In this document: positions 2,237-28,918 of the stretch, piece by piece | Numbering within the stretch: the stretch's first letter is position 1 | Layout of the letters: the number at the start of each line of letters is the position of its first letter | Source: Gammaproteobacteria bacterium | GTDB lineage: Bacteria; Pseudomonadota; Gammaproteobacteria; S012-40 | Assembly (NCBI GenBank): GCA_029883265.1 | Contig: JAOUJM010000026.1 | Span: forward strand, 1 to 32,392 | Reading direction: 5' to 3' | DNA: 32,392 nt | Position numbers and translations under genes: made by a program | The notes under the pieces: generated by a model | What the model was told of the DNA's origin: nothing | The model's input: only the letters and a program-made list of their open reading frames with translations | The model's database searches: none

Positions 2237-3199
2237 TTACACCGCGTATAAATCGCTGCGGTAGGCGTTGAAGTGCGTTCTGCAAACGAGTGTATGACCA
2301 AGCATGCGCGGTGTGGAAAGTTTCTGGCGGCCTTGCATGTGATGGAGATAGCTTTTGGGATTGATGTTGAGGCGGGTTAAGATGGGTGGAAGGTGTTCGG
2401 GGATCGCGCCGCGTTTATGCGGCAGGATGGCGCGGCCACTCCAGTCGAGGAGTTCGAGGTAATCCCGTGTGGTGTAGCCGATGCTGTTTTTATGCGGGTC
2501 TTGGCTTTGTTTAACCAAGGGCATGAGTTTAGGTCGATCAGCAATGGTGGAGCTGTTTTGTTGTCGTTGTTGGATGCGTTGTTGAACGCTGGTGTATTCG
2601 GAGGTTTCCGGTGTTGGGTTGATACCTGCGCGGATGGGGTTGAGGTCAACATAGGCCATGCAAGTGAGAACCGCTTTTTCATCCAATAAGGCTTGGCTTT
2701 TGTAACGTCCTTCCCAGAATCGGCCTTTACATTGGTCTTCCTGGTTGGCTTTGCGGGCGAGATGTTCGTTGAGATTGCGCATGAACCAGGAGATGTCCTG
2801 TAAACGTTGACGCCAGGTTTTGATAATGGTTTGTGCGGCGATGGCCTCCGCTTCTGTGGTTGTTTGATCTTTTGAATAAGACTGCACCAATGGCGGCAAG
2901 TTAAAAAGTTGTTGCCAGCGGTGAACCACCTGTTGATCCGTCCAATCCTCTGCTTTCGCTGTGTCTACGCGTATAACTAAGTGATAGTGGTTCGACATGA
3001 CTGCATAGGCGCATAGATCAATCGCAAACACTTTTACTAAAAGCTGTAAACGCTCAGTCACCCAAGCCTTGCGATGCTCGAAGTCCTTTCCGGAGAAATG
3101 ATCCCGACCGCACAAAAAGGCCCGCCGGACACAGCGACAGATGCAGTGGTAATACGGCGTGACGCTCAGATCAATTTGTTGTGACCGCGGCTGGGTCAT
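2237..3199 (-). CDS. REP-associated tyrosine transposase-like protein (Y1/HUH, RAYT)
   Basis: This 320-residue protein belongs to the Y1_Tnp (IS200/TnpA-REP) superfamily of single-strand DNA transposases. The HUH metal site is visible as MSNHYHLVI (His-71, Tyr-72, His-73). The downstream KGRFWEGRYKSQ and CMAYVDLNPIRAG blocks are family signatures. The canonical tyrosine helix reads RNLNEHLARKAN, and I cannot assign a catalytic Tyr in it; several relatives look the same, so this is a subfamily trait or a domesticated enzyme. The C-terminal 100 residues are an extension. The ATG at 3199 is chosen because GGACGGAGC lies just upstream. The gene is intact and stands alone; such genes usually do not move with terminal IS ends but are associated with dispersed palindromes. 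Confidence 0.85.
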   Translation of the reverse strand: MTQPRSQQIDLSVTPYYHCICRCVRRAFLCGRDHFSGKDFEHRKAWVTERLQLLVKVFAIDLCAYAVMSNHYHLVIRVDTAKAEDWTDQQVVHRWQQLFNLPPLVQSYSKDQTTTEAEAIAAQTIIKTWRQRLQDISWFMRNLNEHLARKANQEDQCKGRFWEGRYKSQALLDEKAVLTCMAYVDLNPIRAGINPTPETSEYTSVQQRIQQRQQNSSTIADRPKLMPLVKQSQDPHKNSIGYTTRDYLELLDWSGRAILPHKRGAIPEHLPPILTRLNINPKSYLHHMQGRQKLSTPRMLGHTLVCRTHFNAYRSDLYAV

Positions 3200-3380: not shown

Positions 3381-4301
3381 CTATTCGATTTTTGTAAGTT
3401 GTTCTTTGCTATAAGACCATAATTCACCTGGTGAAGATCCCCATACAAAAAATCTAAGCTGTACTTTGTTATCATTATAGGATGAAAAGACGACTGGATT
3501 GCAGTTCCCAAATTCTGGGGATATATATTTTGCATCATTGTTATCAAATTCAATAAGAAGCAGTTTGCTATCACAACCATCTATCTTTGCTATCAATCGC
3601 AAAACAACAGTTTGTGCTATTTGACTATCTGGGTGATAGGAATGAATGTCTGCATAGCGATATTGATTTGAACTAAATATTAGCTTGCCATCTAATAGTA
3701 AAACAACCTTTCTAGTTTTGTTTGGTAATTCCCTAGTTACTATTTTGAGATCACCAGCAATTGTTAGAAGACTATCTTCACGATGGAACAACTGCTCGCT
3801 AGTATTATTTTCCTCAATTCCTTTCTCCTCATTTGCGAAAATTAAAGATCGGTTTGAATACTCATAAATGGGTTTTTCCCCATCAATGGACAGTTTTGAA
3901 AATGTCATTCTTATCTTTCCAGCAATAATCTTTGTGTCGAGCAAAACACTACAAGTCCCAAATAAGTCTGACCTGTAAACGTTAGTAGGATCACTAATAT
4001 CAAAAAGGATGTAATCCGCTGCACATTTGTTGCCCCCAGTATATTGAGCCATAACGACAATCTTTCTCTGCTCTACATAAGCGACAAACTCAGAAGACAA
4101 ATATTTATGTCCGGGGGAAATTTCTTTACTATTTAAATAAACATGATAAGACTTTGATCCTCTTGCTTGATCTTTTGAGATAATTTCCATTTTACCAAAT
4201 GGAGTATATATTTTGCTTTTTCTATAATGCTTGTCGAACACCTCTGCGCTGGAGAAATTACTTAAAATGGACAAAATAATTATCAGCACGATGCTTTTCA
4301 C
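3381..4301 (-). CDS. Exported protein, candidate periplasmic immunity protein of the giant Rhs toxin
   Basis: This 306-residue protein has no family I recognise. Residues 1-19 form a signal peptide (MKSIVLIIILSILSNFSSA, cleavage likely before Glu-20), so the mature protein should be periplasmic. The mature part is two similar halves. Each has a Gly-x-x-Cys, a hydrophobic strand ending in FD, and a later Gly-x-Cys or Gly-Thr-Cys, with Cys spacing of exactly 24 in both (Cys93/Cys117 and Cys243/Cys267), which suggests a disulfide in each repeat. The start is a GTG whose G is the last base of the TAG stop of the giant rhs gene (TAGTG), so translation is coupled. A gene placed directly after an effector with a peptidoglycan-cutting C terminus, and exported to where such an enzyme acts, fits an immunity role. 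That role is inferred. Confidence 0.6.
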   Translation of the reverse strand: MKSIVLIIILSILSNFSSAEVFDKHYRKSKIYTPFGKMEIISKDQARGSKSYHVYLNSKEISPGHKYLSSEFVAYVEQRKIVVMAQYTGGNKCAADYILFDISDPTNVYRSDLFGTCSVLLDTKIIAGKIRMTFSKLSIDGEKPIYEYSNRSLIFANEEKGIEENNTSEQLFHREDSLLTIAGDLKIVTRELPNKTRKVVLLLDGKLIFSSNQYRYADIHSYHPDSQIAQTVVLRLIAKIDGCDSKLLLIEFDNNDAKYISPEFGNCNPVVFSSYNDNKVQLRFFVWGSSPGELWSYSKEQLTKIE

Positions 4302-7300
4302 TATTTGTTTCCTTTCTCGAGAAAATTAAAAATTGAAGGATCAATTTTCTTATCTATATAACTATTAAGCCACATTCTATAAGCTTCTGGGGCGTTATTT
4401 TCAGATTTGTTCAAAAGAATAGAAGCCTTTCTTTTACCAACATTGCCCTCTAGCAATTTCGTTGCCCGAGTTTGATCAAGTTTTACACTAGGATACGGAG
4501 ACTTTCCTGTTAAGAAAACTGTGGCCCCCTCAAGCCCCTCATGGTGTGCAAGATAAATCATTTTGCTTTTATCCTTTTCAGAAGCTGATTTTGAAATCAA
4601 ATCTCTGTCAATCATTTTTTCCAAATTCGATGCCGAATGTTCACCAATTGACGTAAGAGCTATTCTCGGTACAGTACGTAACCGAAGTAGTGTATCTTCT
4701 TTACCTTCAACGATTTGGTTTTTTTCATTTACAAGACCAAGTTCTTTCGCTTTTTCATTTAAATATGTCCCTTGCTTTTCGGCAATATTTTTCCAGGTTC
4801 CTGGCAAAAATTGCCCTAAACCTAGGGCTTCAGACAATTTTTCGCCCCTACTATTATATGGTCTTGCATGTGTATCCCAGTTACTTGTTTCGGCTGTAAC
4901 CAGAGTTGCGATGGTTTTCATGCCAGTTCCAGATCTTTTTTCTGCGAATTCTAAGTCTGCTTTGAATGTCATTGCTTTTTGTTGAACAATTTTAGAAACA
5001 ATTATTTTAGCATTGCCTTTCACGCTATGTGTCGGTGCCTGAACAACCTTTCCTGTACCTTTCGCTATATTAGGTTCTTCGGATGGATATGCTTTAGATT
5101 CTTTCGATACGCTAGGAACCTGCAAAGTCTTACCCACATATATCTTGTTCGCATCTTCAATACCATTTAATGTAACCAATTCCTGAACTGATACGCCATG
5201 CGCTTTTGCAATTTTAGAAAGTGTGTCTCCTTTTTTAATTTCATAACCACCATTCTTTGATTCGATTGGCGCAGGGCCGGCTGCTACTGCTTTTGCTTGT
5301 TCAGTTACGTTTTCACCTACTGGTTGGTCACTATCAATTTCCTGATATTGCACACCTTCATAAATATGTCCCTCTCCAAACGTACCTTCTTCAGGCTGGT
5401 TACCAATTAGGCTCGCCATCCAAAGAGTTGCTTCTGTGCTATCACCCCAATCTGTTTTTGGCGTATCAGACTGGTTAGGCAATAGTGCTCCTTGATTACC
5501 GGCTACCTTGCCATCACTATATCCTTTCAGTTTCCATTCAGGTATACCTGTTCCTGGTTTTACTACAGCTGATGCCAATCCAGCTGCCATTCCCGCCATC
5601 GCAGGCTCAGGTCCTTTAGCCATATCAACCAATGCTTGTACGCCACTGACAAAATTACCACCTAGCCATTTCGCAGCTTTTGTGACACCTAACCGGTCTG
5701 CTGTCGCTTTAATTGCCCCTTGTACCATCGCTGATTCACCAATAACGGAACCCATCTTGTTGCTAAAATAGTTAAACCCTGCACCTTCTTGGTAATGCTC
5801 TGCAACCATTGATCCGGCTGCGATAAAAATGCTCTCGCGTGCGATGGCTTTTAGTTGCTGATGAACATCTGGTGACGATATATCACCAACCCCATCTAAT
5901 CCTTCCACAGTCGCACCGGCTAATTCGATCCAATCGATTAAATTGACTTTGTTCTCATCACCGGGGCGAACGGCTTTTTCGATCATCTCTAGCCCTTTAG
6001 TGACCGCGCTCTTGTGCTCATTGACCAGTGTTTTGGCCCAACCAAGTTTCTCACTGGAGAACATCGATAATGTATCGGGTAGGGCCGCCATTACAATATT
6101 AGAATAACTTAAGTTGAAGCCTTCTTTGTCATCCCTACCTTTTGCATATTGTCTTCCGACCTCAATAGTCGCCTTAGTAATCCCTTTCACGAGGTAAGAG
6201 GTTTCCGCAGCAGTCGCCCAAGTACCCAATGCTCCCGCGAGTGCTGTGATTGCAAAGCTCTGACCCATATCTTTCATTGCATCGCGATCATAATCTTCAC
6301 GCAATCCAGCTGCTTTCTCGATGCCTTGTGTTAAGGCTGATGTTGCATAACCAATGGCATAACCACCGGCTGCTATAGCGACTGCCGTGACTAACAAGAG
6401 CCCAACCGCTGCTACTGTGCCCAGTACACCTGCTGCAGCAAGGCCGCCTGCTGCTGCCCAAGCAGCACCTGCCACTGCAGCGGCTGCGCCAGCCGTGGCG
6501 ATAGTAGCGGCGACAACAATGATCACCACTAACACCATGACTAGTTTTTGCCACCACTCCAGTTTCTTCTGTTTTACTTGAATGTATGGTGACTCAGAAC
6601 CAATAATTTCTGATTCTGAATACATCTTGTAACTTTCTTTATTGTTGATTGAGTTCGCAGCAACATTTGGAATAAGTAATGTGGTTCCGGCTTTTAGTTC
6701 TTCGGTCCCTTGCAGATTATTGGCTTCTGCAATTAAGTACCAATACGATGGTGAACCAAAATATGCAGAGGAGACCGCTTGCAATGTTTCGCCGGTGTTT
6801 ACAGTGTGCGTTTGTGCTGAGATACCTGGTTGACTACCTGACGCGCTGATCTTCTGATAGGTATAGTCTGCTTTTGATGCTTCAGAGGAACTCAACTCAT
6901 CAAGAATTAAAATATAATTATCGAGTTTTAGCGCACTGCCCGCTTCAAGCTGTTGTGGTAATTGATTTTTAACATACTCAATAATTGAAGCTTGAGCTTT
7001 CTCAGTTAAATCATAATACCCTCGGATACCACCGTAGATTCGGCGTGCGATGTTTGTCGCTGTTGCGGTTAGATCGACTGAACCCTGGTCATCATATGCG
7101 ATATCACCATAATCCAGCATAAAGTGATTTTCGAGAACGAACTCGTCACCTTCAACAATCGTGTCGGGCAACAAACTAACAACATAGTTTAGTGCCATGG
7201 CTTTTTGGTACTCCGTATATCCACTATATTCGTAATACACCATGTTGATGACGTTTAGCGCGGTCGCTTCTTTGTCTAAGTTGCCGTCTTCGTGTAACAC

Positions 7301-10300
7301 AATGTCCCAGTCATTGAAGGAATAACTGCGTACGAAGTCGTTATTGAACACACGATAGTTCTCATCTGCTGTGATCGTTCTTCTATCTAGACGCAAACTT
7401 CGTTCAGAGTCGGCAACCTGGTTACCATCAACATACAAATAGCTAGCGAGTTTATCCCAGGCACCTGCTAATCCTGATCGGCCAAACACCTCTAACCCAA
7501 ATTGTTGTCGAAGACTTTCAGTTTCAAAACTATACGTTCCGTCTGGATCGACATTAGCCGTCAACATGTAGCCAATATCTTGTAGCACTTCGTTGCTACC
7601 ACTATAGTCATTGTGACGATTCAGAATTTTGCCTTCGTTATTGTAAGCAAAATAGCGCATACCGCCGCTTGAGCCATAAATTCGATGCAACTGGCTATTT
7701 AGATCGTATGCATAATGCGTCTTACCGGTAAGCCCATCCGTATCTTCTGCCCAACTATCTTCGATTGTTTTGCTCAGCGTTTTGTAGAGCACATCAAATC
7801 GAGTAACCTCGGAGAATTTGCTATCGTCAGCAATAGTTCTGGTTTTATATGCGTTACCCGCGCCATCAAAATACGTGTAAGTCTTTTGTCCTGACGAGTT
7901 CGTATAAGTGTTTCGATTGAGACGATCATAGGCGTTTGAGGTGCCAGTACCAGAGGCATTGCGTTTATATGTAACGTTTCCGTTTGCATCATATTGCCAC
8001 TGTTCGTTTGCACTGCTGGATATTACACGGCCATTGTGGTCATATTGATAGGTAATTGTATTTCCATTTTTGTTTTCAGAAATACGATTACCAAATGCAT
8101 CATATTGGAAGACATAACCTGCGCCATCGCCGCTTTCGATTGTGATGAAGCGACCGTTTTGGTCATAGCCATATCGATTTTCTTGTTCAAGCATGCCATT
8201 GATGTATTTTTGGATGGCAACTCGATTTCCGTTTTGATCATAGCGATACACAACACCCACTTGATCATAACTGGTGGTGACGCCACCCTCGTAGTTCATA
8301 TCGCTGTTAACACCGGTTAGCCAGCCGTGACGGTTATAGGTGTTCTGTTGATGATGCAATTGGATCGAATCGCGCGTAAGTGTTTCTTCGATGACACGGC
8401 CCGCCGCGTCATAGATATAGTCAACTGTCTGATCGGCATCGACACTCGAAGAGTCTCGTGCAACGCGTGTTAGACTGGCGACTTGATCGGCATCGTTATA
8501 CACATAACGATCATACTTACCACGAGTATCGGTGATTGTGATTTTTTGACCGAGCCAATCGTATTCGTTAAATTCTTGATATAGGCGATCACCTTGCATG
8601 TTACCATGTGCTTCATCCATACGAATGGTCATACTTAGAATCTGACCATAGGCTCCAATCTCATAGCTGGTTACACGACCGTTACCATCGGTTTCTGAGA
8701 CTTTTGTGCCGTATGCGTCGTAGGCGGTTAGCCATTCCTTATCTAAGCGGTCGATGCGTTTTATCACACGATTATCGGCATCATATTCAAAATGCTCTGT
8801 GTAATCAGCTAATACCTGATCTTTGTCGTCAGCGCTTGCTTCAATCCATTTTTTGTAGCCCACTGCATCAAGTTTTGAAACAAGGTTTCCACCCTTGTCG
8901 TATTCCATTTTGGTGACACCGTTCATGGCATCAACATACATCGTGACTTGATCGAAACTATCATATTGATATTGGTTAATACGTAATGCACCCGTATCCA
9001 AATCTTTGTAATGCTTGTTCGATATACGACCCAGACTGTCATAAAAGTATTTGGTCTCTAGGCTACCTTTAGCATCCCATTCTTTTTCCAGTCGTCCTAA
9101 ATCATTGTGGTAAAATTTTGTGGTATAGCCACCGGCATCGGTTTTGGTCGACTGATTACCTTGCTCATCATAAGTCATGTGCAGGGTAACCTCGGCGGAA
9201 AATGAATTGCCCGCCGTATCGAAGAATTGTAACTCGCCATGATTAACCATGGTTTGTTGGTTCATGCCATCAAAAACATGGGCCGTGCGTTGTTCAACAC
9301 CGACAACACCTTTTTGCGCGATTTCGAGAATGACATTATTGAAGGCATCGTAATACCATTCGTCGCGTACTGTGCCATGGGTTTGAGAATGCGTCTCTTC
9401 CGCGCGTTTTTGATTGGTCGCATCGTATTCCATAGTGGTAACGCGAATCGTATCCAAACCTTGAGAGGCCGCATCAACAGCCGCCGCGTAGTTTTGTTGC
9501 AGTTGCTCCAGCGATGGTCGAACCGATAGATTCACGACCTGATCAACAAAGTTGCCGGTGCTTGGATCTTGATATTTGAAGCGAACTTCTTTTGTTAAGT
9601 TACCACTTTCATCATAGAAATAACGCGTCCACACCCCGCCTTTCTCATTAGAGAAAATGCGATTACCGTTTTGGTCGTAGTAGTGATAGACATAATCCGT
9701 ACTGCTGGCATCGCCCGTGGTGGTAAAGTTCACAGGAACAGTCGATTGCTCATTTACCTGATAGGTCGTTGCATAACGTAAACCGGTTAATTGAGATTCT
9801 TCTGCCGAATGCAGTTGCAGTGCGGACACTGTTATACTGCCGCTAATATCATTGAGGGTACTAACCACGGTTTGTACTTCCGTGTATTCAACACCGTTCT
9901 CATCGGTGTGTACCGTTTCTATTTGTTCCGTGAGTGTTTTAACAATGTGTAATTGATAATGGCCGACTGCAAGCTGATCAAGATCAAAGGTGGCCGCATC
10001 AAATGGATAGTGTGTGGTTTGTCCATCACTATCGGTAATCGCTAGTGATAAACTTTCACCAGCGTTTAGCGGAAGTAAACTATCAATTGAAAACTGATTG
10101 TCCAATACACTGTGCAATACTGCTTGATCCGGTGCAGTTGCATCCACCAAACTACCCATGTTTGCTAGCTCAGTGAGACGAAAACTGCCTTGTGCATTTC
10201 TAAGTACTTGACCGTTTTCAGAAAGCACCGCTTGGTATTCGTAGTCACCTTCGGCAAGCATCGATAGATTGATAACATCGCCACTAATATTCGCGACATC

Positions 10301-13300
10301 CAGATCTGCCCATTCACTACTACCAACACTGCGATAGCTAAACTGTAAGGTAGTTGATTCACTTTCAGCATATGGGAAGTTTAGTTTCAATCGTTGATAT
10401 GACTCATCAACATTCGCTAATGAAAGCAACCGCACTGAATCATATTCAACGATGTCTCCATCCTTGTTGAAATATTGAAAATATACATCGTAAGCGCCTT
10501 CCGGAATATCGAGGTAGTTTAATTCAAATTTTCCAGAAAGTTCATTGTAGTCCGCGCGTTGAAAACTCGGCTCATCGGTTGAACCTGCCGGTAAATATGC
10601 GACATATACTTTGTGATGTGTTTGAGTGTACGGATTACCCAGTTCATCCGTATAACTTTGGATATAGGTATCGACTTGAGCTAAGTCAAGATTCCAGGTT
10701 GTATTAATATCGTAGACACCGGATGTGCTACCTGCTTGGGTGCTAACCGTGCCATTAAAAATATCCAATACCTGTTGTTGCTGTAACGATTCAACATTGG
10801 TATTAAATACTTGCCCCTGGCTATCGGTCCATTGGATTTGAAAGCCAATGCCATCTAAGCTTGATACATTAACGTGTGCGGTATAGCTACCATCACCTTG
10901 TGCTTGAACACTTTGTGTCTGAGCAGCAATTAGGGTCTGCGAATCACTACCGGTTTGACCCGTGAGTAAACTCACATTGAGCGCACCAACCGGCGGCACA
11001 AAATCCACGACTAATTGATAACTACCATCGGCAAGCTGGGTTAAATCGCGAACTGCGATCGCTTGAATATCGGTTAAGGTTCTAAATGTTTGCGTATCGG
11101 TGGTTATGGTATATCCGAACGCGTCAGATGATTGAACATAATATTCGTATTGCGTGTCTGCCGATAAACCTTTCAGCGCAATACTATGAGTACGAGAATA
11201 CTGACCTTCGACACCATAGCGAACCCAGGCATCACTACTACCGGCTTTACGCACATAGACCGCACTGTCGGTGGCGTGATCCGTTGACCACTCAATGAGG
11301 GCGCCATCTGACGTGGCCAGTGTATGGTTGATCTGATTATTGTCAAATGTCGGTGCGTTCCAGCCACCGGTTTGCGTGGCTAGCACCTGACCTCTTGCGT
11401 CATAAGTCGTCGCACTTACACCGCCATTGGGATTAACGGTGCCGACTACTTGATTTAGACCATTGTAGAAAAACGTGGTTTGGTAACCACGGGCATCAGT
11501 CATTTCAACTTTATTACCGTTTGCATCAAAAGCGGTTGTGCTAACACGATCATCGTGGACATCCGCTAAATCACCTAACTGACGCTCTTCAACAATGCGA
11601 CCAATTCGGTCGCGAACGTATTCGGTTCGTTGATCGTGTGTCGCGTTAACTTGCGGCTTTTGCGGAAATTGGAAACTGGTTGTGTTCCAATAGGTATGTG
11701 AAAATAAGGCTTCGCCACTTAAGCTATAACCGTATTCAGTGTAGGTTCCATTTTCTTCAATCGATGCGGTCTTGCGATTTGCTCGATCATATTGATGACG
11801 TAATCGAGTGCCATCTACTCGTGTCTCTGAAACAATATTGTCGTTAGCATCGTAGCTCATGCTAGCAACAATGCGATAGTTTTCGGTCGTGATAACGTTG
11901 CCGTTAACATCCACATCCACTTTGGTATAATGCGGCATGTGCATGTGCGTCATGCGATTATTTAGATCGTATTCAAACGTTGTTAACCGACCGCCTTGAT
12001 CTTTTTCTCGTAGATTACCAGCGGCATCGTACTGATAGTGCGTACTAAATATTGTTTGGATTTGTGCATGATCCGCGTCACTTAGTTGGCTCAGTTGTTT
12101 CCCGCTACCATCCGCATTCACAATGCCAAGTTGCTTGCGATGCTCAATTGCATATTCATCATCGGTTTGCAGCAACTCTACCGCACTCGGTAACACTTCG
12201 AGTGTCAATCGACCCGCTACATCGTAGGCTCGCACGGTGTAATATGGACTGTTTTCTTCTGCAAGATGAATATTGGTTTCAGTTAAGATATTGCCAAAGG
12301 CATCGAATGTTCGATCAACTTCACCACGTGCGGTAATTTCCTGTCCGTCGACAAATAAGCTAGAAGACGGAAGCACGGTTTTGATGGCATTATTGCCAAG
12401 GTCATAAACATGTTCGGTTGTCCGGCTATCACCGACGGGTACAAATGTGTCAGTGTTAAGCGTTAGCGCTTCTGATTCAGTGATGCTTTGTTTCTCTAGG
12501 AAAATATCTTCGCGTGTCATGTTACCGAAGGCATCATATTCCATGCGAACGAAATATCCTTCAGCATCAAGTCGAGCAGTGATTTGACCGTTTGCATCAT
12601 AGTAAAAATAAGTCTTGTTGCCATTGGGATCGATCTCAACAATCTTATTGCCGACTTTGTCGTATATATTCGTCGCCGTTGGTGAAATGATCTCAGCGGT
12701 ATATCCGCCTTGACCATCAAGTACAAAGTTTTCTACCGCATCGAGTTGTGAACTGATCATGCGGTTCGCTTTGTCATAGCTCATGACCACGGTTCGATCA
12801 TGTTCTGCATTCGGGGTTACATTCGGTAGGTTGCCATCGGCAATGCTTAATACGTTGATTGCGTGAGCATATTGAATTGTTTTGACCTGGTTTCCAACGG
12901 CATCATATTGTGATTCTTGTACAAAGCCATGTGGCTCAACCTGGTAGATTGCGCGGCTGGCAGCATCATAAAATGTATAGGTGGTATATTGTGCTAACAA
13001 TGAATCACGGGCACTTCCCGTTAAGTGGCCGCTGACTGCGAATCCATTGGCACTAATCTCGGCAACCGTGTTACCCAGTGCATCATAGCGATAACCGGTT
13101 CGAATATTTAAGCCATTGGGGTCGATGGCACGTTCTGTAATTCGATTATTGAGGTCGTATTTAAACTGCGTTGTCTGTACTTGTTCAACGCGTGTCGCGG
13201 GTTCAACCAGTGTGTTATACCAAGTATTTAAGACATTCTTTTCGATAAGATTATAAACAGCGTCATATTCGTAGTCTGTTTTGACGGTTACGCCATCAAT

Positions 13301-16300
13301 AAACACCGGTTCACCGGCTTGATCCAAGCCCATGTGTTCATACTGTGTAACAACGACATTTGCGTGATTGTATTCATTTTTGCGCACACGAGCGGCTTCA
13401 CCATTCCAATTATTGGCATTTTCTATATTCAGAACCAGATTGCCGACTGCATCGTATTGCAAGGTATTGATTATACCGCGTGCATCCGTGCGACTGATCA
13501 AGCGATCGTTGTTGTCGAATTGATAGCGAACCGTTTTGTCTTTGGCATCAATCGTGGGTAACTCGCCACGGAGCAAGCTGCTGCCATCAATTGCAAAAAA
13601 ATGTTCGGCGATGCGATTGCTGCGTGCGTCGTAGTCGAATGTTTTAATATCACCCTCACCATTGCGTTGCCAGATTAAGCGATCGGCTTTGTCATAAGCG
13701 CTTTCACCGCGATTGCCATTGGCGTCAACGATCGCAATGGAGTTTCCCCGTTGGTCATATTCATATTGCGTGGTGATAGCAAGACCATTGGGATCAATGA
13801 TCTCAGCCGTTTTGCGATTGGCAAGATCGTAGCTATAGCGCGTTGTTCGGGCATCGGTGGTTAACGCTGTACTCGGTTGATTATTCCCATCAAGCGCTAA
13901 GCCTTTGGTTTCAGCAATGAGATTACCAAAGTCATCGTATTCAAAATGGGTGACGTGACCCATCGGGTCAACGATAAATTGCACCTGACCGCTGGCATCA
14001 TAAAAATATTGCGTGGTGACATTCAGTTTACCTTCACCGTGATCCAATATTTTTTGGCATTGTAAGCCAGCGTCATTGTAATCCGTGTGAGCGACAGTTC
14101 CATTAGGTTGAATCGTGTTAACGATTTGATCACGTAAGTTGTACTCATAACGGAACGTGCGTGCGTCAGTGAATAGAACCTCGGTTTGCACGCTACTGAT
14201 TCGCACCATATTCGCTTCGATGACCGAATCCGTTGGTGCCAGATACGCATACGCTTGTGTGTCTTCGATTTTATTTCCGCGCGCATCATAGTCATACTTT
14301 GTCACAACGCCGAGACTGTCAACCATGAACGTCTGACGATTCATGGCATCGTAAGCAAAACGCGTGGTCGTCTCGTGGGCAAGCAATGCCTTGTTCGCAT
14401 CATAGTTTGCATCACCCGGTGAAACCAAGTATTGACCTAAAGTGATACTGGTTTGATTTCCAAATACGTCATAAGCAAAACTCGTACTAAAGCCTTCCCC
14501 ATCAGTGACCACCAACGCATGATTCATCACATCGTATTCAGTGTTACGCGTCACACCGCCGCGTGTTTCTGAAACCAAATTACCGTAAACGTCATACGCT
14601 AACTGTGTGCTTAGGGCCAAACCATCGGGATCAATGACTTTTTCCACAAGTCGGTTGGCTTGGTCATAACTGAAAGCCGTTACAACCGCATCGGATGTAT
14701 TTGCTGCCACTGTTTGATCAATTAAATTACCAGCAGCGTCATAACGCATCAATGTGGTGACGTTGTTTGCATCGCTCGTGGATACCAGCAGGTTACGACC
14801 ATCGTATTGCATCTGTGTTGCTTGTGTAATGCCACTATTACGGTCGGTAATGGATTGTTGAATTAAGTTGCCGAAGGCGTCGTAGCTATAGATGGTGGTC
14901 GCGCCGATACCGTTCGTTTGCGCAATCATTTGATTACGATTATCAAAAACTTGTGTGGTGGTTAGTGCATCCACGGTGTTGGGTGCGATGGTGGTCAGCA
15001 CACGGTTTCCGAAACTGTCGTATTGATGAATAGTCGTTAACGCATCGGTGCTGCCGGCGGCGATGGTTTCCTCAATCATACGATTCATTGCATCGTAATT
15101 GAACGTCGTGAGTCGTTGATCCGCAGTACCCACAGCATCTGTTTTTTGTACCAGCTGACCGGTGCCATTGTATTGGAACTGCGTGATGGTTTGATCGGCA
15201 TGGGTTTGCTGAATTAGACGACCCAATTCATCATAACTAAATTGAGTCACGCGTTGTGATGGTAAACCATAAGCTTCGATGATTGCGGTTTGTTGTCCCG
15301 CTAAATCATATTCAAATTGGGTTACAATACCAGCAGGATCGGTTTTACTCACCATGCGATTCATCTCGTCGTAGCTGAATGACCACTGCCGTGATTGATC
15401 TGTATTTGCGCCTTCAATAATTGCGATTCGATTTCCCAACTTATCGTATTGATAGTTGGTCACAACATTCAGGCTATCTTGCATGCTGACTAAGCGATTC
15501 AGTTCATCGTAACTGTATTGAACCTGCGTCGGATGGGCGAGATTGATTTTGCTTGAGTCGTAGTTCGGATCGTTACTATCCAGTAAATACAATCCCGACT
15601 CTATAAGTGTTGTGTTTCCGAAGACGTCATATTGGTAACGGGTGCTATAACCTTCCGCATCCGTGGTAAGACTCAGTTTTCCTACGTTATCATATTCAAA
15701 TTGTTGAAGATGATCTAAGGCTGATGGTGTGAGTTCGAGGTCACGTGCTTGAGCATAATCGGTAACGTTAACCGAATTTGCATAGGCATGTATCTGTGTT
15801 TGGTTACCCATTTCATCGTATTGATACTCAACCACATGCCCAAGTGAATCAACTGACCGAACTAGATTACCCGTATGATCAAATACAAAAAACCGTGTTT
15901 GGTCATTTTCACTCGCGATCACCGTGGGTAGCGTATTCGGATCGACTTCAGCGGCTAAACGGTTGGCAAAGCGTGTTTCGCTAATACGATTACCAAACGC
16001 GTCATATTCATACTTAACGACGGAACCGTCAGCGTTAACAAGTACGCTCAGCTGGTTAAGCTTATTAAAGTATTGCGTCGTGGTTTGTCCTAAGGCATCG
16101 ATGACCTGGACTGCATTACCATAGGCATCATATTCATAGCGCGTGACGGACCCGTCAGCGGCAACGATTTGAGATAGTTGATTCTTGCTGTCATAAACAT
16201 AGCGAGTTTCATGGCCGTTCGCATCAATAATGACCGTCCGGTTACCCGCGGCATCGTATTGAAAGTGTTTGCTGGTGCCATCTGCAAATATCAGTTGTCG

Positions 16301-19300
16301 CACTTGACCGTTTTCATCGTATACGGTTTGACTAATACGTTGTTCCGGTTGATCCCACGCCTCATATACCAGGCGTCGTTGATTTTCACTATCATATTCA
16401 AAGCGCGTAATGATGCCAGCCGCATTGCGGGTTTCAATTTGACGATTCATGTCGTCGTAGGCAAAATAAGTGGTACGGCTTGCCTCGGTATTGGCGCCGT
16501 GAGTCACGCGTATCTTGTTACCAAATTGATCATAGATCGATTCAGCGGTGATGCCTGCGGCATTGGTCACATGCGTCATACGATTCATATCGTCGTATTG
16601 GTATCGCATGACTTGTTGTTTGGTAAGATCTACAAGATCGCTTGCATCTTCAAACCGTACTAGTGTTGTACGATTACCCAATGCATCGTATTGATAGTGA
16701 GTTAGGTATCCTTCGGCGTCGAGTTTTTCGACCAATTGATCTTTACTATCATACACAAATGATGTGGTGCGATCGTGCGCTGACGCAGATACAACTTGTG
16801 CATTGATCGACACAGCACTGTCAACAACCACCGCGTCGGCATGATGTACCGTTGCAATAATATTTTGTGTATTGTCATAAAGATGATCGGTCACGTAGCC
16901 ATTGGCATCGATGGATCGGACTAATCGATTCGTTACATCGTAGCCATAGCGAATGACCTGATCGCCAGTTGATTCAATCAGCACGGGCTGCTGTGCGGGG
17001 TCAAATGTGTTATCGATGGCTTGTTGATAGCGGACTTCTTTGATCAGATTACCATTGTTATCGTAAAAATAGGCGGTCGCAAAGCCCAAACTATCAACGG
17101 ATACGCTTAACTCATTATTACTATTAAAGTACTGCGTTGTAATGTTACCTTGGGCATCAATGATCTGAGAACGATTTCCAACTTCGTCATAGTTAAACGA
17201 GGTGGCGTAATAAAGTTGAAGTTGTAATTGTTGTTCGCTACTAAGCTGTTGACTATCAGCTGCGAATCCCATGTTGACTCGCATGACTTGAATGTAATCT
17301 GCATTGCTGGTGGCGAGTGCGTGACCCATCGGTTCAATAATGCGAATCACTTGGTTGTTTTCGTCGTATTCATAACTCGTCACACGGTCTAATGAATCGG
17401 TCACTTGAATCACGTTACCGTTTTCATCGTAAGTTTGGTGTGTACTGTATTGTTCAGCTATCGCCGCTTTTTGTGCATCGGTCAAGTCACTGGTTAAGGC
17501 AGCATAGCCGAGCTCAACCCGTAGAATGCGGTAATAGGCTGTGTCCTTACTTATTAGGGCATTACCAAATGCGTTGGTTGTTGTAACTAGACGATTGTTT
17601 TTATCAAACACAAAGCTTGTCTGTTGTGCTGCACTTGTACCCGCGCCAACAACAATATCGGTTTGATTTAGGTGCGCATCATAGGTATAAGTACTGACAA
17701 CACCCGACGCACTTACACGTTTAATGACTTGGTTTCGATTGTCATAGTTAAAAGAACTGGTATAGGCATTTAGCAAGGCATCTTTTTGTTCGACAGTCAG
17801 TTGATCAACTAGCAAACCCGCACCGGTGCTATCGGTATAGCCCATGGATTGGCGTAATGTCTGATAATAGGCGTCATTACTGCTAATAATTGCATAACCA
17901 TTTGCATCGGTGATCGAAATTTGATTGCCGTTAGCATCGTATTGATATGTGGTTTTACCGCCTAATGCATCGATCACTTCGATAACGCGATTCACGGCAT
18001 CGAAGGCATACTGAGTCTGATGCCCATTGGCATCAGTTACGCTGATTTGGTTGTAGACACGGTCATAATCATTCACGGTTTTATTGCCGTGCGCATCGAT
18101 GACTGCACGCAAATTATTCTCGGCATCATATTCAAATTGTGTGGTTTGTTGGTCAGTTGTACCGAATGCGGTTGTCTGTGTAATCAGATTACTACGTGCA
18201 TCGTATTCGAATTGAGTAATACGCCCTTGTGCATCGGTGCTACTAATCATGCGATTGGTGGGATCGAATGCCATCGAGGTCAAGCCACCGCGTGCATCGA
18301 TGATAGATAGACGGTTGCCGACACCATCGTATTGATAAGTCGTGGTGTGATTGCTAGGGTCGATGATTTGAATAACACGGTTTTCTTGATCGTAGATATA
18401 TTGAGTAGCAAATCCGCGTGCGTCGACCGACCGTGTACGATTACCAACGGCATCATATTCGAAGTAAACCGGATTACCTTCCGCATCGGTTTGTTGTATT
18501 AAGCGGTTATTCAAATCGTACTGATAGGTCGTGGTTTGTGCTTCTAGTGTGCCGGCGGAAACGGTTTCGCTTACAAGATTGCCCACATTGTCAAACACGC
18601 GTTGGGTCACTACACCTAGTGGATCAATGACGTTGCTGATGCGATTATTACCGTCATACTCAAACTGGGTTGAATAGAGAGCAAGCAATGCGGCTTTGTC
18701 AGCATCAGATAGAGCCGATGCATATTTTGAATAACCATGTGCGGCACGGATGTCTTGATAGTAAAACTCATCACTTGATATGAGTTTGTCACCCACTGCA
18801 TCAGTAGTTTTGATTAGGTTGTTATTTCCATCATAACTTAATCGTATCTTCTCGCCATTTTCATTGACCTCAGCGATTAAGCGGTGGAGTGCATCATATT
18901 CTTTGGTCGCAACATGTCCCAGATGGTTGCTTGTTTCAATCAAGTTACCGGTACGATCGTAGGCATAGCGTTCAGTATATAGTGCTTTGAGTTGCGCTTT
19001 TTCTAGGTCGCTCAATTGCGCAACCAATTTACCCTGACCGGTGGATGAATCAATATAACCAAGTGCTTGTCGCATGGTGACGTAGAGTGGGCTGTCTGAA
19101 CTAGTCAGCGCATTCCCCACTCCATCAACTTTACTCACTACTTGGTTGAATTCATCATAGGTATAGCGTGTGGTGCTGGACTGACTTACATCGTCAAACA
19201 CGATCGAACCGGTCGTTTCATCGACGTGTGCTTGCACACCAATATGCACTGCTGTGCGATTATTGCGGCCGTCATACTCAAAAACGGTTTCAATATCGTT

Positions 19301-22300
19301 CGCATCACTTATCATCACTACGCGATTGTTTTTATCAAACGTAAAACGTGTCAATTGGCCATTTTCATCGCGTGTCGCGATTTGATTGTTTTCGCCATCA
19401 AAGTAGTGATTGACAGAATGTTCGACTGTGAGACCGGTCACTGGGTCTGTGGTCGGTGCACGATACTCGGTAATGAATCGATTTTGGTGATCATAGGCGA
19501 AACGACGTTCTTGGCCATTTTCATCGACCACACGAATAATATTGCCCACGGCATCGTGCTCGATGGTTTTACGATTTCCTAGTGCGTCAAGCTGGGCGAC
19601 CAGTTGGTCTTCTTCATCGTAAACATAGCTCAGTATACGGCGCTGTTGTTCTGGTAGCTGCACACCAATAATTACTTGAACCTGATTGAAGTTTGCGTCG
19701 TATCGGTATTGGGTTATATTCCCTTCGGGATCTGTTTGTTGCACCAATAGGCCGGCGTTGTTATACACATACTCAGTCACATAACCATTGTTGTCGTTAA
19801 CGGCAATACGGTTACCAATCGCATCATATTCATAGCTAGTTTGATAAGAAACCGTGGTGCCATCATGACTAACCATCGGGGTAAGTATCTCAAGTAGACG
19901 GTTATCTTCGCGGAATACATAGTTTGTTGTATTCCCTTCGGCATCCGTGACGGCGGTGCGATTGCCGACCACATCATATTTATAGTTGGTCGTGCGATCT
20001 TGGGCAGGGTCATTTTCAGATGGGTCAATGACACTGATAAGTTGATTGTTCTTGTTATAAACATAAACCACTGTATGACCATTCACGTCCGTCACGCCGA
20101 TACGGTTACCCACTGCATCGTATTGATAAAAAGTTGCGTGACCTTCTGGGTTGGTGACAGAGGTTAGGCGATTGTCGTTATCATACGTGAAATGAGTGAC
20201 GCCACCATTCCCATCCGTATGGGTTAAACGGTTCCCAAATAGATCATAACTGTTGTAACTGGTAAAATGGGATATGAGATAGGCTTCTTCAAGTGGTGTT
20301 ATCTGAGCGCGCCATTTACCGTTATTGTTGCCATCAACCACGCCCAGTTCGGCACGTAGATCCCGCCAATACTCGTCATCACTTTGAATGAGCAGCCAAG
20401 CATTTGCTTCGATCGTTTTAATATTGTTGCCATATGCATCGTAAAAATATTGCGTGACTTGTTGCTTCGATGGGTCGACCAAGTCAGTCGCATCGAGAAA
20501 ACGGATTTGTCGTGTCACATTTCCAAATTCATCATACTCAAATCGTGTGATGTCACTACCTTGTGCGAGAATCTCGATTAGGTTTTGATTTTGGTCATAG
20601 CTGTAATAAATTGTGTGTAACGCTAATAGTGCTTGCTTGTCCGCGTCAGAGAGTTGTTCGACTAGAGCCGAATAACCAAGCTCACTACGTTTTTCTTGAT
20701 AAAGTTCTTCGTTGGATTGGGTAAGTGCATAACCCATGGCATGGGTTTCAGTGGCTAATTTATTGAAGTCCGTGTAGGTAAATTCAGTGACATTATCCTG
20801 ATTGTCTTCTCGACGAATTAAATTGCCGTGTTCGTCATAGTGCAATTGCGTTGTAAAAAATGCGTTCAGTTGTTCAATATCTTCAGTGGTAAGATTTGCA
20901 ACCTGTTTGCCTTCACCAGCGGCATCGATAAATCCTAACTGCTTACGTTGGTCCCGCCAATATGGGTCATCACTATGAGTAATGGCATAACCATTTGCAT
21001 CTACAATCGCGATTAAGTTTTCTTGATCATCATAAACATATTGTGTTTGATAGTCGTATACGACGACGCCATCAATTGTTTTCGCGTTGGTGACCTGGGT
21101 GATCGCTCCATTTTCATCATAGGAATACGAAACAGCATGATTATGTAAAATTTCATCGACTTGATGTACGTAACTATCCCAACGCGCTTGATCAAATACA
21201 TAGTTTCCATTTGCATCAAGGAATAGACCATCGTCATAGGATTTCTGATCCCATTGTGCATAGTATCCATTCTCGATACGCCATTGCACACTGACAGAAT
21301 CATTCGATTCCGCTCGCTCAATCCCAAGCGCATTGGTTACCCAAGTTGTGCCACCCGCGTATTGTGACCAGTTGCCACTTGCCAAATCATAGCTAAAACG
21401 AGTTTCGTTGCCTTGTGCATCGATAATGGATGACAGCAAGGGTGTTTTACTCGTCATATCTTTTTTCGAGGCTTGGTATTCGAAGCGAACAATACGTTCG
21501 TCGGTGTTTACATCGGTAGGAAAACGAATTGAGGATAATGAGCCATCCATGAAATAGGTGTACTCTGTGATATGGCCTTCCCGGTCTATGACACGATGCA
21601 ATCCGTTTTGGTTATACTCATAGGTCACTAAGACATTTCCGTTTTCATCAGAAATTTGCGTAAGGTTGGAGCCTTCATAGGTATAGCTAATGACGTGACC
21701 CGTATCATCGAGTACGCGAGTCAGTCGATTAGATTGATATTCGTATTGAATGATATTGCCATTGGTGTCGACACTTTGAATAAGCGAGCCATTGACATCA
21801 AAGTAAAGAATGGATTGATCAGCACGGGTTAGGGTATACCCAGTTACGGTTTCTGTATTCCAAACCATATCACCATTGTTTTTCATCGACATGCGGTGAT
21901 AGTCAAAATCACCTTTTACGATGGTTTCATATGAACCGGCGCCATCGACGGATGTAAACGTATCGGTTGCGCTATCATAATAAAAACGGAACTGGCTACT
22001 GTCCCAATTAGAGATACGGATTTCGTTTGCTGTGATTTGCTCTAAGGTCATCGGTGTGGAGATATTCCAGCCTTCAGCCAGATTCTCATCGAGTGTGCCA
22101 CGGCTGTTGTAAGTACGAATCACCGAGAAGTCTTCACCTTGTGATGGTAAATAACCATCGGTGTGACGAATCACTAGGTTCCCATTACTCACATTTACAA
22201 AGATGTCTTCATCACCATTTGATGAACCCAATTGCGTTTGGTCATCTCGATTGAGTAAGAACAAAGAACTGTCGAGCAAGCCCGTGTCGTATCCGCCAAT

Positions 22301-22312
22301 GATAGTAGCCAT
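4301..22312 (-). CDS. Giant Rhs/YD-repeat protein with LysM and C-terminal lysozyme-like domain
   Basis: About 6003 residues, several times the usual Rhs length of 1300-2000. I chose the ATG at 22312 (MATIIGG) over an upstream TTG because TGAGGAA lies just before it. Order: N-terminal cap with VIRTYNSRG (about residue 62); YD repeats (about 140-3645); beta-rich fibronectin-like insertion (about 3650-4160); YD repeats (about 4200-4900); two related 65-residue helical repeats (about 4980-5140); LysM 1 (about 5167-5216); Ala/Gly/Val hydrophobic stretch (about 5250-5330); LysM 2 (about 5690-5734); C-terminal domain (about 5770-6003). The last domain has TAETSNWD with a likely catalytic Glu-5808, then ALGLGQFLPGTW, the pattern of lytic transglycosylases and lysozymes (GH23-like). 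YD shells usually encapsulate a C-terminal toxin, so I infer a peptidoglycan-cutting antibacterial effector. There is no signal peptide, PAAR or VgrG domain, so the export route is unknown. Confidence 0.85.
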   Translation of the reverse strand: MATIIGGYDTGLLDSSLFLLNRDDQTQLGSSNGDEDIFVNVSNGNLVIRHTDGYLPSQGEDFSVIRTYNSRGTLDENLAEGWNISTPMTLEQITANEIRISNWDSSQFRFYYDSATDTFTSVDGAGSYETIVKGDFDYHRMSMKNNGDMVWNTETVTGYTLTRADQSILYFDVNGSLIQSVDTNGNIIQYEYQSNRLTRVLDDTGHVISYTYEGSNLTQISDENGNVLVTYEYNQNGLHRVIDREGHITEYTYFMDGSLSSIRFPTDVNTDERIVRFEYQASKKDMTSKTPLLSSIIDAQGNETRFSYDLASGNWSQYAGGTTWVTNALGIERAESNDSVSVQWRIENGYYAQWDQKSYDDGLFLDANGNYVFDQARWDSYVHQVDEILHNHAVSYSYDENGAITQVTNAKTIDGVVVYDYQTQYVYDDQENLIAIVDANGYAITHSDDPYWRDQRKQLGFIDAAGEGKQVANLTTEDIEQLNAFFTTQLHYDEHGNLIRREDNQDNVTEFTYTDFNKLATETHAMGYALTQSNEELYQEKRSELGYSALVEQLSDADKQALLALHTIYYSYDQNQNLIEILAQGSDITRFEYDEFGNVTRQIRFLDATDLVDPSKQQVTQYFYDAYGNNIKTIEANAWLLIQSDDEYWRDLRAELGVVDGNNNGKWRAQITPLEEAYLISHFTSYNSYDLFGNRLTHTDGNGGVTHFTYDNDNRLTSVTNPEGHATFYQYDAVGNRIGVTDVNGHTVVYVYNKNNQLISVIDPSENDPAQDRTTNYKYDVVGNRTAVTDAEGNTTNYVFREDNRLLEILTPMVSHDGTTVSYQTSYEYDAIGNRIAVNDNNGYVTEYVYNNAGLLVQQTDPEGNITQYRYDANFNQVQVIIGVQLPEQQRRILSYVYDEEDQLVAQLDALGNRKTIEHDAVGNIIRVVDENGQERRFAYDHQNRFITEYRAPTTDPVTGLTVEHSVNHYFDGENNQIATRDENGQLTRFTFDKNNRVVMISDANDIETVFEYDGRNNRTAVHIGVQAHVDETTGSIVFDDVSQSSTTRYTYDEFNQVVSKVDGVGNALTSSDSPLYVTMRQALGYIDSSTGQGKLVAQLSDLEKAQLKALYTERYAYDRTGNLIETSNHLGHVATKEYDALHRLIAEVNENGEKIRLSYDGNNNLIKTTDAVGDKLISSDEFYYQDIRAAHGYSKYASALSDADKAALLALYSTQFEYDGNNRISNVIDPLGVVTQRVFDNVGNLVSETVSAGTLEAQTTTYQYDLNNRLIQQTDAEGNPVYFEYDAVGNRTRSVDARGFATQYIYDQENRVIQIIDPSNHTTTYQYDGVGNRLSIIDARGGLTSMAFDPTNRMISSTDAQGRITQFEYDARSNLITQTTAFGTTDQQTTQFEYDAENNLRAVIDAHGNKTVNDYDRVYNQISVTDANGHQTQYAFDAVNRVIEVIDALGGKTTYQYDANGNQISITDANGYAIISSNDAYYQTLRQSMGYTDSTGAGLLVDQLTVEQKDALLNAYTSSFNYDNRNQVIKRVSASGVVSTYTYDAHLNQTDIVVGAGTSAAQQTSFVFDKNNRLVTTTNAFGNALISKDTAYYRILRVELGYAALTSDLTDAQKAAIAEQYSTHQTYDENGNVIQVTDSLDRVTSYEYDENNQVIRIIEPMGHALATSNADYIQVMRVNMGFAADSQQLSSEQQLQLQLYYATSFNYDEVGNRSQIIDAQGNITTQYFNSNNELSVSVDSLGFATAYFYDNNGNLIKEVRYQQAIDNTFDPAQQPVLIESTGDQVIRYGYDVTNRLVRSIDANGYVTDHLYDNTQNIIATVHHADAVVVDSAVSINAQVVSASAHDRTTSFVYDSKDQLVEKLDAEGYLTHYQYDALGNRTTLVRFEDASDLVDLTKQQVMRYQYDDMNRMTHVTNAAGITAESIYDQFGNKIRVTHGANTEASRTTYFAYDDMNRQIETRNAAGIITRFEYDSENQRRLVYEAWDQPEQRISQTVYDENGQVRQLIFADGTSKHFQYDAAGNRTVIIDANGHETRYVYDSKNQLSQIVAADGSVTRYEYDAYGNAVQVIDALGQTTTQYFNKLNQLSVLVNADGSVVKYEYDAFGNRISETRFANRLAAEVDPNTLPTVIASENDQTRFFVFDHTGNLVRSVDSLGHVVEYQYDEMGNQTQIHAYANSVNVTDYAQARDLELTPSALDHLQQFEYDNVGKLSLTTDAEGYSTRYQYDVFGNTTLIESGLYLLDSNDPNYDSSKINLAHPTQVQYSYDELNRLVSMQDSLNVVTNYQYDKLGNRIAIIEGANTDQSRQWSFSYDEMNRMVSKTDPAGIVTQFEYDLAGQQTAIIEAYGLPSQRVTQFSYDELGRLIQQTHADQTITQFQYNGTGQLVQKTDAVGTADQRLTTFNYDAMNRMIEETIAAGSTDALTTIHQYDSFGNRVLTTIAPNTVDALTTTQVFDNRNQMIAQTNGIGATTIYSYDAFGNLIQQSITDRNSGITQATQMQYDGRNLLVSTSDANNVTTLMRYDAAGNLIDQTVAANTSDAVVTAFSYDQANRLVEKVIDPDGLALSTQLAYDVYGNLVSETRGGVTRNTEYDVMNHALVVTDGEGFSTSFAYDVFGNQTSITLGQYLVSPGDANYDANKALLAHETTTRFAYDAMNRQTFMVDSLGVVTKYDYDARGNKIEDTQAYAYLAPTDSVIEANMVRISSVQTEVLFTDARTFRYEYNLRDQIVNTIQPNGTVAHTDYNDAGLQCQKILDHGEGKLNVTTQYFYDASGQVQFIVDPMGHVTHFEYDDFGNLIAETKGLALDGNNQPSTALTTDARTTRYSYDLANRKTAEIIDPNGLAITTQYEYDQRGNSIAIVDANGNRGESAYDKADRLIWQRNGEGDIKTFDYDARSNRIAEHFFAIDGSSLLRGELPTIDAKDKTVRYQFDNNDRLISRTDARGIINTLQYDAVGNLVLNIENANNWNGEAARVRKNEYNHANVVVTQYEHMGLDQAGEPVFIDGVTVKTDYEYDAVYNLIEKNVLNTWYNTLVEPATRVEQVQTTQFKYDLNNRITERAIDPNGLNIRTGYRYDALGNTVAEISANGFAVSGHLTGSARDSLLAQYTTYTFYDAASRAIYQVEPHGFVQESQYDAVGNQVKTIQYAHAINVLSIADGNLPNVTPNAEHDRTVVMSYDKANRMISSQLDAVENFVLDGQGGYTAEIISPTATNIYDKVGNKIVEIDPNGNKTYFYYDANGQITARLDAEGYFVRMEYDAFGNMTREDIFLEKQSITESEALTLNTDTFVPVGDSRTTEHVYDLGNNAIKTVLPSSSLFVDGQEITARGEVDRTFDAFGNILTETNIHLAEENSPYYTVRAYDVAGRLTLEVLPSAVELLQTDDEYAIEHRKQLGIVNADGSGKQLSQLSDADHAQIQTIFSTHYQYDAAGNLREKDQGGRLTTFEYDLNNRMTHMHMPHYTKVDVDVNGNVITTENYRIVASMSYDANDNIVSETRVDGTRLRHQYDRANRKTASIEENGTYTEYGYSLSGEALFSHTYWNTTSFQFPQKPQVNATHDQRTEYVRDRIGRIVEERQLGDLADVHDDRVSTTAFDANGNKVEMTDARGYQTTFFYNGLNQVVGTVNPNGGVSATTYDARGQVLATQTGGWNAPTFDNNQINHTLATSDGALIEWSTDHATDSAVYVRKAGSSDAWVRYGVEGQYSRTHSIALKGLSADTQYEYYVQSSDAFGYTITTDTQTFRTLTDIQAIAVRDLTQLADGSYQLVVDFVPPVGALNVSLLTGQTGSDSQTLIAAQTQSVQAQGDGSYTAHVNVSSLDGIGFQIQWTDSQGQVFNTNVESLQQQQVLDIFNGTVSTQAGSTSGVYDINTTWNLDLAQVDTYIQSYTDELGNPYTQTHHKVYVAYLPAGSTDEPSFQRADYNELSGKFELNYLDIPEGAYDVYFQYFNKDGDIVEYDSVRLLSLANVDESYQRLKLNFPYAESESTTLQFSYRSVGSSEWADLDVANISGDVINLSMLAEGDYEYQAVLSENGQVLRNAQGSFRLTELANMGSLVDATAPDQAVLHSVLDNQFSIDSLLPLNAGESLSLAITDSDGQTTHYPFDAATFDLDQLAVGHYQLHIVKTLTEQIETVHTDENGVEYTEVQTVVSTLNDISGSITVSALQLHSAEESQLTGLRYATTYQVNEQSTVPVNFTTTGDASSTDYVYHYYDQNGNRIFSNEKGGVWTRYFYDESGNLTKEVRFKYQDPSTGNFVDQVVNLSVRPSLEQLQQNYAAAVDAASQGLDTIRVTTMEYDATNQKRAEETHSQTHGTVRDEWYYDAFNNVILEIAQKGVVGVEQRTAHVFDGMNQQTMVNHGELQFFDTAGNSFSAEVTLHMTYDEQGNQSTKTDAGGYTTKFYHNDLGRLEKEWDAKGSLETKYFYDSLGRISNKHYKDLDTGALRINQYQYDSFDQVTMYVDAMNGVTKMEYDKGGNLVSKLDAVGYKKWIEASADDKDQVLADYTEHFEYDADNRVIKRIDRLDKEWLTAYDAYGTKVSETDGNGRVTSYEIGAYGQILSMTIRMDEAHGNMQGDRLYQEFNEYDWLGQKITITDTRGKYDRYVYNDADQVASLTRVARDSSSVDADQTVDYIYDAAGRVIEETLTRDSIQLHHQQNTYNRHGWLTGVNSDMNYEGGVTTSYDQVGVVYRYDQNGNRVAIQKYINGMLEQENRYGYDQNGRFITIESGDGAGYVFQYDAFGNRISENKNGNTITYQYDHNGRVISSSANEQWQYDANGNVTYKRNASGTGTSNAYDRLNRNTYTNSSGQKTYTYFDGAGNAYKTRTIADDSKFSEVTRFDVLYKTLSKTIEDSWAEDTDGLTGKTHYAYDLNSQLHRIYGSSGGMRYFAYNNEGKILNRHNDYSGSNEVLQDIGYMLTANVDPDGTYSFETESLRQQFGLEVFGRSGLAGAWDKLASYLYVDGNQVADSERSLRLDRRTITADENYRVFNNDFVRSYSFNDWDIVLHEDGNLDKEATALNVINMVYYEYSGYTEYQKAMALNYVVSLLPDTIVEGDEFVLENHFMLDYGDIAYDDQGSVDLTATATNIARRIYGGIRGYYDLTEKAQASIIEYVKNQLPQQLEAGSALKLDNYILILDELSSSEASKADYTYQKISASGSQPGISAQTHTVNTGETLQAVSSAYFGSPSYWYLIAEANNLQGTEELKAGTTLLIPNVAANSINNKESYKMYSESEIIGSESPYIQVKQKKLEWWQKLVMVLVVIIVVAATIATAGAAAAVAGAAWAAAGGLAAAGVLGTVAAVGLLLVTAVAIAAGGYAIGYATSALTQGIEKAAGLREDYDRDAMKDMGQSFAITALAGALGTWATAAETSYLVKGITKATIEVGRQYAKGRDDKEGFNLSYSNIVMAALPDTLSMFSSEKLGWAKTLVNEHKSAVTKGLEMIEKAVRPGDENKVNLIDWIELAGATVEGLDGVGDISSPDVHQQLKAIARESIFIAAGSMVAEHYQEGAGFNYFSNKMGSVIGESAMVQGAIKATADRLGVTKAAKWLGGNFVSGVQALVDMAKGPEPAMAGMAAGLASAVVKPGTGIPEWKLKGYSDGKVAGNQGALLPNQSDTPKTDWGDSTEATLWMASLIGNQPEEGTFGEGHIYEGVQYQEIDSDQPVGENVTEQAKAVAAGPAPIESKNGGYEIKKGDTLSKIAKAHGVSVQELVTLNGIEDANKIYVGKTLQVPSVSKESKAYPSEEPNIAKGTGKVVQAPTHSVKGNAKIIVSKIVQQKAMTFKADLEFAEKRSGTGMKTIATLVTAETSNWDTHARPYNSRGEKLSEALGLGQFLPGTWKNIAEKQGTYLNEKAKELGLVNEKNQIVEGKEDTLLRLRTVPRIALTSIGEHSASNLEKMIDRDLISKSASEKDKSKMIYLAHHEGLEGATVFLTGKSPYPSVKLDQTRATKLLEGNVGKRKASILLNKSENNAPEAYRMWLNSYIDKKIDPSIFNFLEKGNK
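12025..20985 (-). repeat. Nine copies of a helical insert between YD repeats of the giant Rhs protein
   Basis: At nine places the YD chain is interrupted by a related insert of about 40-50 residues. It begins S-x-D-x-x-Y-x-x-x-R-x-x-LG, may have a short Gly-rich turn, then reads QLSDADKAALLALY-like helix before the next YD motif. Approximate positions: 20840-20985, 20605-20730, 20255-20395, 18970-19110, 18665-18787, 17755-17890, 17430-17560, 17195-17320 and 12025-12175. It is predicted helical, unlike the beta-strand YD units, and is diverged between copies, so the copies are old. Confidence 0.75.
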
Positions 22313-24201: not shown

Positions 24202-24241
24202 GTTGAGTAGACCGAGGGAATTTCACCCTCAGCCCCTCCAA

Positions 24242-25105: not shown

Positions 25106-25152
25106 CTTGTTGAATAACATAGTCTTGTATTACACAAACAAAGGACCATGCA

Positions 25153-28915: not shown

Positions 28916-28918
28916 GGA

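Follow-up and report, generated by a model that had tools for sequence, protein, structure and literature searches.

A giant Rhs/YD-repeat protein with a predicted gp144-like lytic transglycosylase end and a candidate immunity protein of an undescribed family

The gene pair described here very probably encodes an Rhs toxin of the polymorphic type together with a periplasmic immunity protein whose family is undescribed. It lies in a window of 32,392 nucleotides, by which we mean the whole stretch of DNA analyzed (contig JAOUJM010000026.1, positions 1 to 32,392, of assembly GCA_029883265.1), from a member of the Gammaproteobacteria placed in GTDB group S012-40. Both genes and all of their features are on the minus strand (Table 1). 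An Rhs toxin with an immunity protein is a known kind of system, and the new part is the candidate immunity domain family. The toxin-immunity reading given to the pair by the initial annotation is supported by the analysis, and from it we infer lethality of the first protein and protection by the second.

Table 1. Features of the giant Rhs gene and the partner gene, in window coordinates
Feature	Position	Strand	Details
Giant Rhs/YD-repeat gene	4301..22312	-	6003 aa from ATG
Alternative start of giant gene, TTG	22351	-	6016 aa
DUF6531, residues 39-110	21983..22198	-	Pfam E 6.8e-8, above cut-off
RHS/YD-repeat shell, about residues 250-4780	7973..21565	-	Pfam RHS_repeat in all four segments; YD density
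LysM domain 1	6668..6820	-	Profile match
Hydrophobic segment, residues 5250-5324	6341..6565	-	Hydropathy
LysM domain 2	5114..5245	-	Pfam LysM
Lytic transglycosylase-type (gp144-like) C-terminal domain, residues about 5781-6003	4304..4972	-
Catalytic Glu5808	4889-4891	-	Glu of TAETSNW
Tyr5920, in the YLAHHEG motif	4553-4555	-
TAGTG stop/start overlap of toxin gene and partner gene	4299..4303	-
Candidate immunity (partner) gene, exported product	3381..4301	-	306 aa
Partner domain copy 1	3783..4241	-	hhalign, N half versus C half, E 8e-13
Partner domain copy 2	3384..3782	-	hhalign to single-domain relatives, E 5e-15; domain E 9e-45

Architecture of the giant protein and its locus

The anatomy outlined in the initial annotation was borne out. 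The gene had been called uninterrupted over 18 kb, and indeed no stop occurs in its 6003 codons, against about 330 expected in random codons of equal base composition; the GC content at the three codon positions (54/38/40%) follows a coding-frame pattern. The protein opens with DUF6531, a domain typical of Rhs protein starts. The YD repeats noted earlier match Pfam RHS repeats with E values down to 4e-156, and the shell that they form contains a repeat-poor stretch around residues 3500-4250. The two LysM domains seen in the first reading were both matched (Pfam E 2e-23), and the hydrophobic stretch was located at the residues given in Table 1. The reported TAET...GLGQFLPGTW signature is present as TAETSNW at residue 5806 and GLGQFLPGTW near residue 5831. 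A size of about 6000 residues had also been called unusual, and the protein is indeed unusually long, though no record: published RHS toxins peak at 1400 to 1600 aa, compared with 6003 aa here, and the same survey's maximum over all toxin types is 13652 residues (PMC3482391).

The features shared with Rhs/YD-repeat polymorphic toxins are DUF6531, RHS repeats, a C-terminal enzymatic domain, and an immunity-like gene directly downstream (PMC3482391). However, most polymorphic toxins carry domains that target nucleic acids (PMC3482391), and the domain here is a predicted cell wall enzyme. The canonical DPxGL-type core junction of Rhs toxins is also missing near the toxin domain of the giant protein; its DPDGL and DPNGL motifs are confined to residues 2561 to 3064, and a DPDGT occurs at residue 4922, some 860 residues ahead of the toxin. 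There may be a divergent core junction before the toxin domain. Pfam matches in its N-terminal segment were limited to DUF6531 and RHS repeats, and no delivery domain, whether PAAR, VgrG-binding, or of another kind, was recognized in the protein. Among 13 genomes of the family, no second copy of the Rhs body or linker was found, nor a body with another C terminus.

The TAGTG overlap reported earlier is present as described. The partner gene starts with the GTG that overlaps the TAG stop of the giant gene, and an AAAGGA lies 8 to 9 nt upstream of that GTG. The overlap suggests translational coupling of the toxin and partner genes.

The rest of the window contains other elements, all on the minus strand. 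The giant gene is flanked by pieces of mobile elements, at 23715-25265 and 2237-3199, comprising IS3-type transposase-like and group II intron reverse transcriptase-like fragments recognized by eye and a Y1-type transposase open reading frame found by Pfam. A likely second toxin-immunity operon at 26768-30503 encodes, in order, a ketoacyl-synthase-like protein, an AHH-nuclease-like protein (a weak match, E 0.0055), Imm11 (E 5e-11), a PAAR-like protein (E 7e-33), and a TIGR02270/HEAT protein. Next to it, at 30543-32068, a HipA-kinase-like open reading frame and a HipB-type helix-turn-helix partner were recognized by eye only.

The C-terminal domain and its relatives

The initial annotation had proposed a lysozyme-like C terminus and a structure prediction with fold search as a check, which we ran. 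In a profile search, an alignment of four rows covering the C-terminal domain of about 215 residues matched the phiKZ endolysin gp144 (E 6e-4). An AlphaFold2 model built with ten sequences reached a mean pLDDT of 88, and its best match in the PDB was again gp144 (3BKH; Foldseek probability 1.00, E 1.4e-3, TM about 0.5), followed by MltE, MltF, MltC, Slt, and goose lysozyme. A PHROG transglycosylase family was matched by 8 of the 10 members of the enzyme family, and Pfam SLT by three. Glu5808 is invariant across the 10 aligned homologous sequences and aligns beside Glu115 of gp144, and gp144 Tyr197 lies in the region that aligns with the YLAHHEG motif (gp144 residues from PMC5406664). The model thus confirms the predicted lysozyme-superfamily fold, more precisely that of a gp144-like lytic transglycosylase, and the domain would be enzymatically active. 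It shares with gp144, a class 1 lytic transglycosylase (PMC5406664), the fold, the aligned Glu, and the YLAH motif, at 18% identity in the structural alignment. However, gp144 is a phage lysis enzyme, and the domain here is the candidate toxin end of an Rhs shell.

These intact residues bear on another explanation, in which the giant protein is a LysM-anchored surface adhesin or matrix protein with a vestigial enzyme and a partner that has nothing to do with protection. Surface binding would fit with the YD shell and the LysM domains, and the length is far beyond the usual Rhs range. However, the catalytic Glu and the YLAHHEG motif have been kept, and the linkage to the partner is conserved across two phyla, as described below; we regard such an adhesin as very unlikely.

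Nine relatives came from a scan of genome contigs with the enzyme alignment; they belong to Acinetobacter, to Acidovorax and further members of the Burkholderiales, to the Alphaproteobacteria, to an acidobacterium, and to a gammaproteobacterial metagenome-assembled genome (MAG). In single-sequence tblastn searches, enzyme homologs were present on plasmids, where the partner was not found, and no enzyme homolog was found in annotated phages. The closest relative in architecture is from the gammaproteobacterial MAG (locus L025, contig JABDBK010000015.1), where the enzyme domain terminates an Rhs protein that has hydrophobic and, by eye, LysM-like stretches. The order of Rhs, LysM-like, hydrophobic, and transglycosylase regions is the same as in the window, and the partner genes are likewise overlapping and encode exported proteins of the same family. 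The toxins of the two loci share 32% identity, and L025 has two adjacent single-domain partners where the window has one fused two-domain partner.

The Acinetobacter homolog is a LysM-LT-M23 protein whose gene stands between vgrG, immediately upstream, and a gene for an exported protein. Two loci, L029 and L030, have the Tse4-like layout of a transglycosylase domain plus M23. Tae17 and Tse4 are antibacterial bifunctional wall hydrolases of the Acinetobacter type VI secretion system that have a transglycosylase domain and an exported neighbor downstream (PMC11796386), and we liken the window pair to them by layout. Tae17 depends on its transglycosylase Glu, and its toxicity is confined to the periplasm (PMC11796386). 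LysM is common to Tae17, L029 and L030, and the giant protein. However, Tae17 and Tse4 have a second catalytic domain and vgrG-adjacent genes, in contrast to the single enzyme on a giant Rhs shell here.

Other homologs of the enzyme are in different surroundings. In the Sphingomonadales, they adjoin FliI and other flagellar genes, and on a Burkholderiales contig one lies near a FliR-like gene recognized by eye. The homologs at L053 (3135-4121, plus strand) and L024 (5611-6594, plus strand), beside a FliI that is annotated in Erythrobacter and recognized by eye in Pacificimonas, are probably assembly enzymes. Because homologs also occupy flagellar loci, the enzyme domain alone is no proof of a toxin. 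The giant protein's enzyme might, like such assembly enzymes, be a self-acting tool that opens the producer's own peptidoglycan for the passage of the giant protein itself or of a secretion machine, with the partner as a restraining regulator. We consider this quite unlikely, given that the nearest architectural relative is an Rhs protein with partner genes of its own, that partner copies, in the manner of immunity genes, outlast decayed enzymes and are found in tandem, and that standalone enzyme-plus-partner cassettes occur in the window's own genome and in a family relative, those of the relative standing beside other wall-hydrolase genes with exported neighbors. An enzyme tree did not resolve whether the partner-carrying enzymes form one clade.

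The partner protein and its linkage to the enzyme

The signal peptide claimed for the partner stands as a signal-peptide-like start judged by eye: the N terminus, MKSIVLIIILSILSNFSSA^EV, looks cleavable and has no lipobox. Profile comparison with hhalign revealed that the protein is a tandem duplication of a domain of about 130 residues. None of 20 column-shuffled controls for the comparison of the halves did better than E 0.12, and the duplication is visible by profile comparison only, BLASTP giving no similarity between the halves. Each copy has one Cys pair, Cys93/Cys117 and Cys243/Cys267, and one pair per domain was likewise found in all complete domains of the family examined, with a spacing of 24 residues (23 in L027). 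The pairs are consistent with a periplasmic disulfide. As the first reading had held, the family appears novel: neither Pfam nor NCBIfam gave a match to the partner, the PDB offered no credible sequence match, and no known Imm or lysozyme-inhibitor family of Pfam was matched by profile. Its structure model was poor (pLDDT 61), and therefore no inhibitory surface can be argued from it; a beta-propeller-like fold was rejected, with Foldseek TM below 0.3 and a model too weak.

The layout of enzyme gene followed by partner gene, which the initial annotation had singled out, recurs elsewhere. An exported partner directly follows the enzyme in the window, on contig C150 of the same genome (a partner fragment that overlaps another on contig C83), on contigs C28 and C31 of the family relative G008, and in L025 and L027. 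The linked loci thus include an acidobacterial locus and an Rhs gene with the same layout from a distant gammaproteobacterium (L025), and linkage is kept across two phyla. The partners downstream of the enzyme, two adjacent single-domain proteins in L025 and one single-domain protein in L027, are independent evidence, because both loci were fetched by the enzyme alone. In genome G007, the partner is kept and the enzyme is reduced to a 16-residue C-terminal stub directly upstream, 81% identical; the stub marks a decayed toxin gene and rules out this partner as an unlinked homolog. A second copy in L027 similarly keeps the partner behind an enzyme stub.

Searches that started from the partner were less uniform. 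The partner protein by itself matched nothing in a scan of 84,980 species genomes, and a reverse search with the partner-domain profile over 398 genomes of the phylum led to three other genomes. In one of these (G530), the relative lies in a vgrG-effector locus; in the other two (G621 and G391), no enzyme of the gp144-like type was found within the stretch read. The linkage is thus strong but not universal. The initial annotation had named unlinked homologs of the downstream gene as evidence against the pairing; these two genomes supply a weak form of it. Orphan copies are a frequent fate of immunity genes.

The same copies could favor a partner that is an accessory, such as a periplasmic chaperone, with the immunity factor elsewhere, as could the linkage of the G530 relative to a different effector type. 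However, the exported gene stands directly behind the enzyme in several separate contexts, it is duplicated in tandem in L025, and it has been retained in G007 and L027 although the enzyme next to it has decayed. We judge an accessory role unlikely and keep to immunity as the preferred reading.

Relatives of the partner at two loci deserve mention. At L069 (2289-9572, minus strand), vgrG is followed by an effector of 770 aa that weakly matches M23 and has, by eye, a GH19-like look, then by an exported protein, a small open reading frame, and a partner-domain relative, a candidate for another immunity use of the family. At L068 (1593-3426, minus strand), two adjacent two-domain relatives with no recognized toxin nearby are possibly an orphan immunity pair.

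Two short contigs of G008 (L010, which is C31, and L011, which is C28) contain LysM/linker modules with shared linkers and differing wall-hydrolase ends: gp144-like transglycosylase, SLT, Hydrolase_2, and another that by eye is M15-peptidase-like. Behind these modules lie differing exported proteins that belong to no known family. One 6064-bp unit is present twice in C31, which may be an assembly artifact. Polymorphic toxin cassettes are laid out as arrays of this kind (PMC3482391), and the likeness supports the toxin-immunity reading of the family.

Delivery, proposed mode of action, and implications

The giant gene is not adjacent to vgrG, and the protein has no recognizable PAAR, VgrG, or Hcp fusion. 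Type VI secretion would be the most likely route of delivery, because TssC/VipB is encoded in the genome (E 7e-131; the presence of the system was judged from TssC), homologs lie beside vgrG, and the PAAR-like gene of the other operon in the window is about 5.7 kb away. The repeat shell would carry the C-terminal lytic transglycosylase into the periplasm of a competitor, where the enzyme would cleave MurNAc-GlcNAc bonds of the peptidoglycan and the LysM domains may aid wall binding. The exported partner would shield the producer and its siblings when they are hit by the toxin. Each half of the partner is probably a disulfide-stapled, beta-rich domain that would most likely bind and block the enzyme in the periplasm.

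We lean toward the view that the Cys-pair domain of about 130 residues makes up a new family of periplasmic proteins that inhibit glycan-cleaving wall enzymes, a portable one found in at least two phyla in single, tandem, and fused forms, with the two fused copies here acting as a double inhibitor of the giant protein's transglycosylase. Most catalogued polymorphic toxins have their targets, nucleic acids, in the cytoplasm. An Rhs toxin of this size that cuts the wall must deliver its tip to the periplasm and so offers a test case for the release of cargo from Rhs shells. The candidate immunity family is recognizable by one Cys pair, 23 to 24 residues apart, per domain, and lytic transglycosylases, which are common to several secretion effectors and endolysins, would gain a new protein inhibitor in the partner domain.
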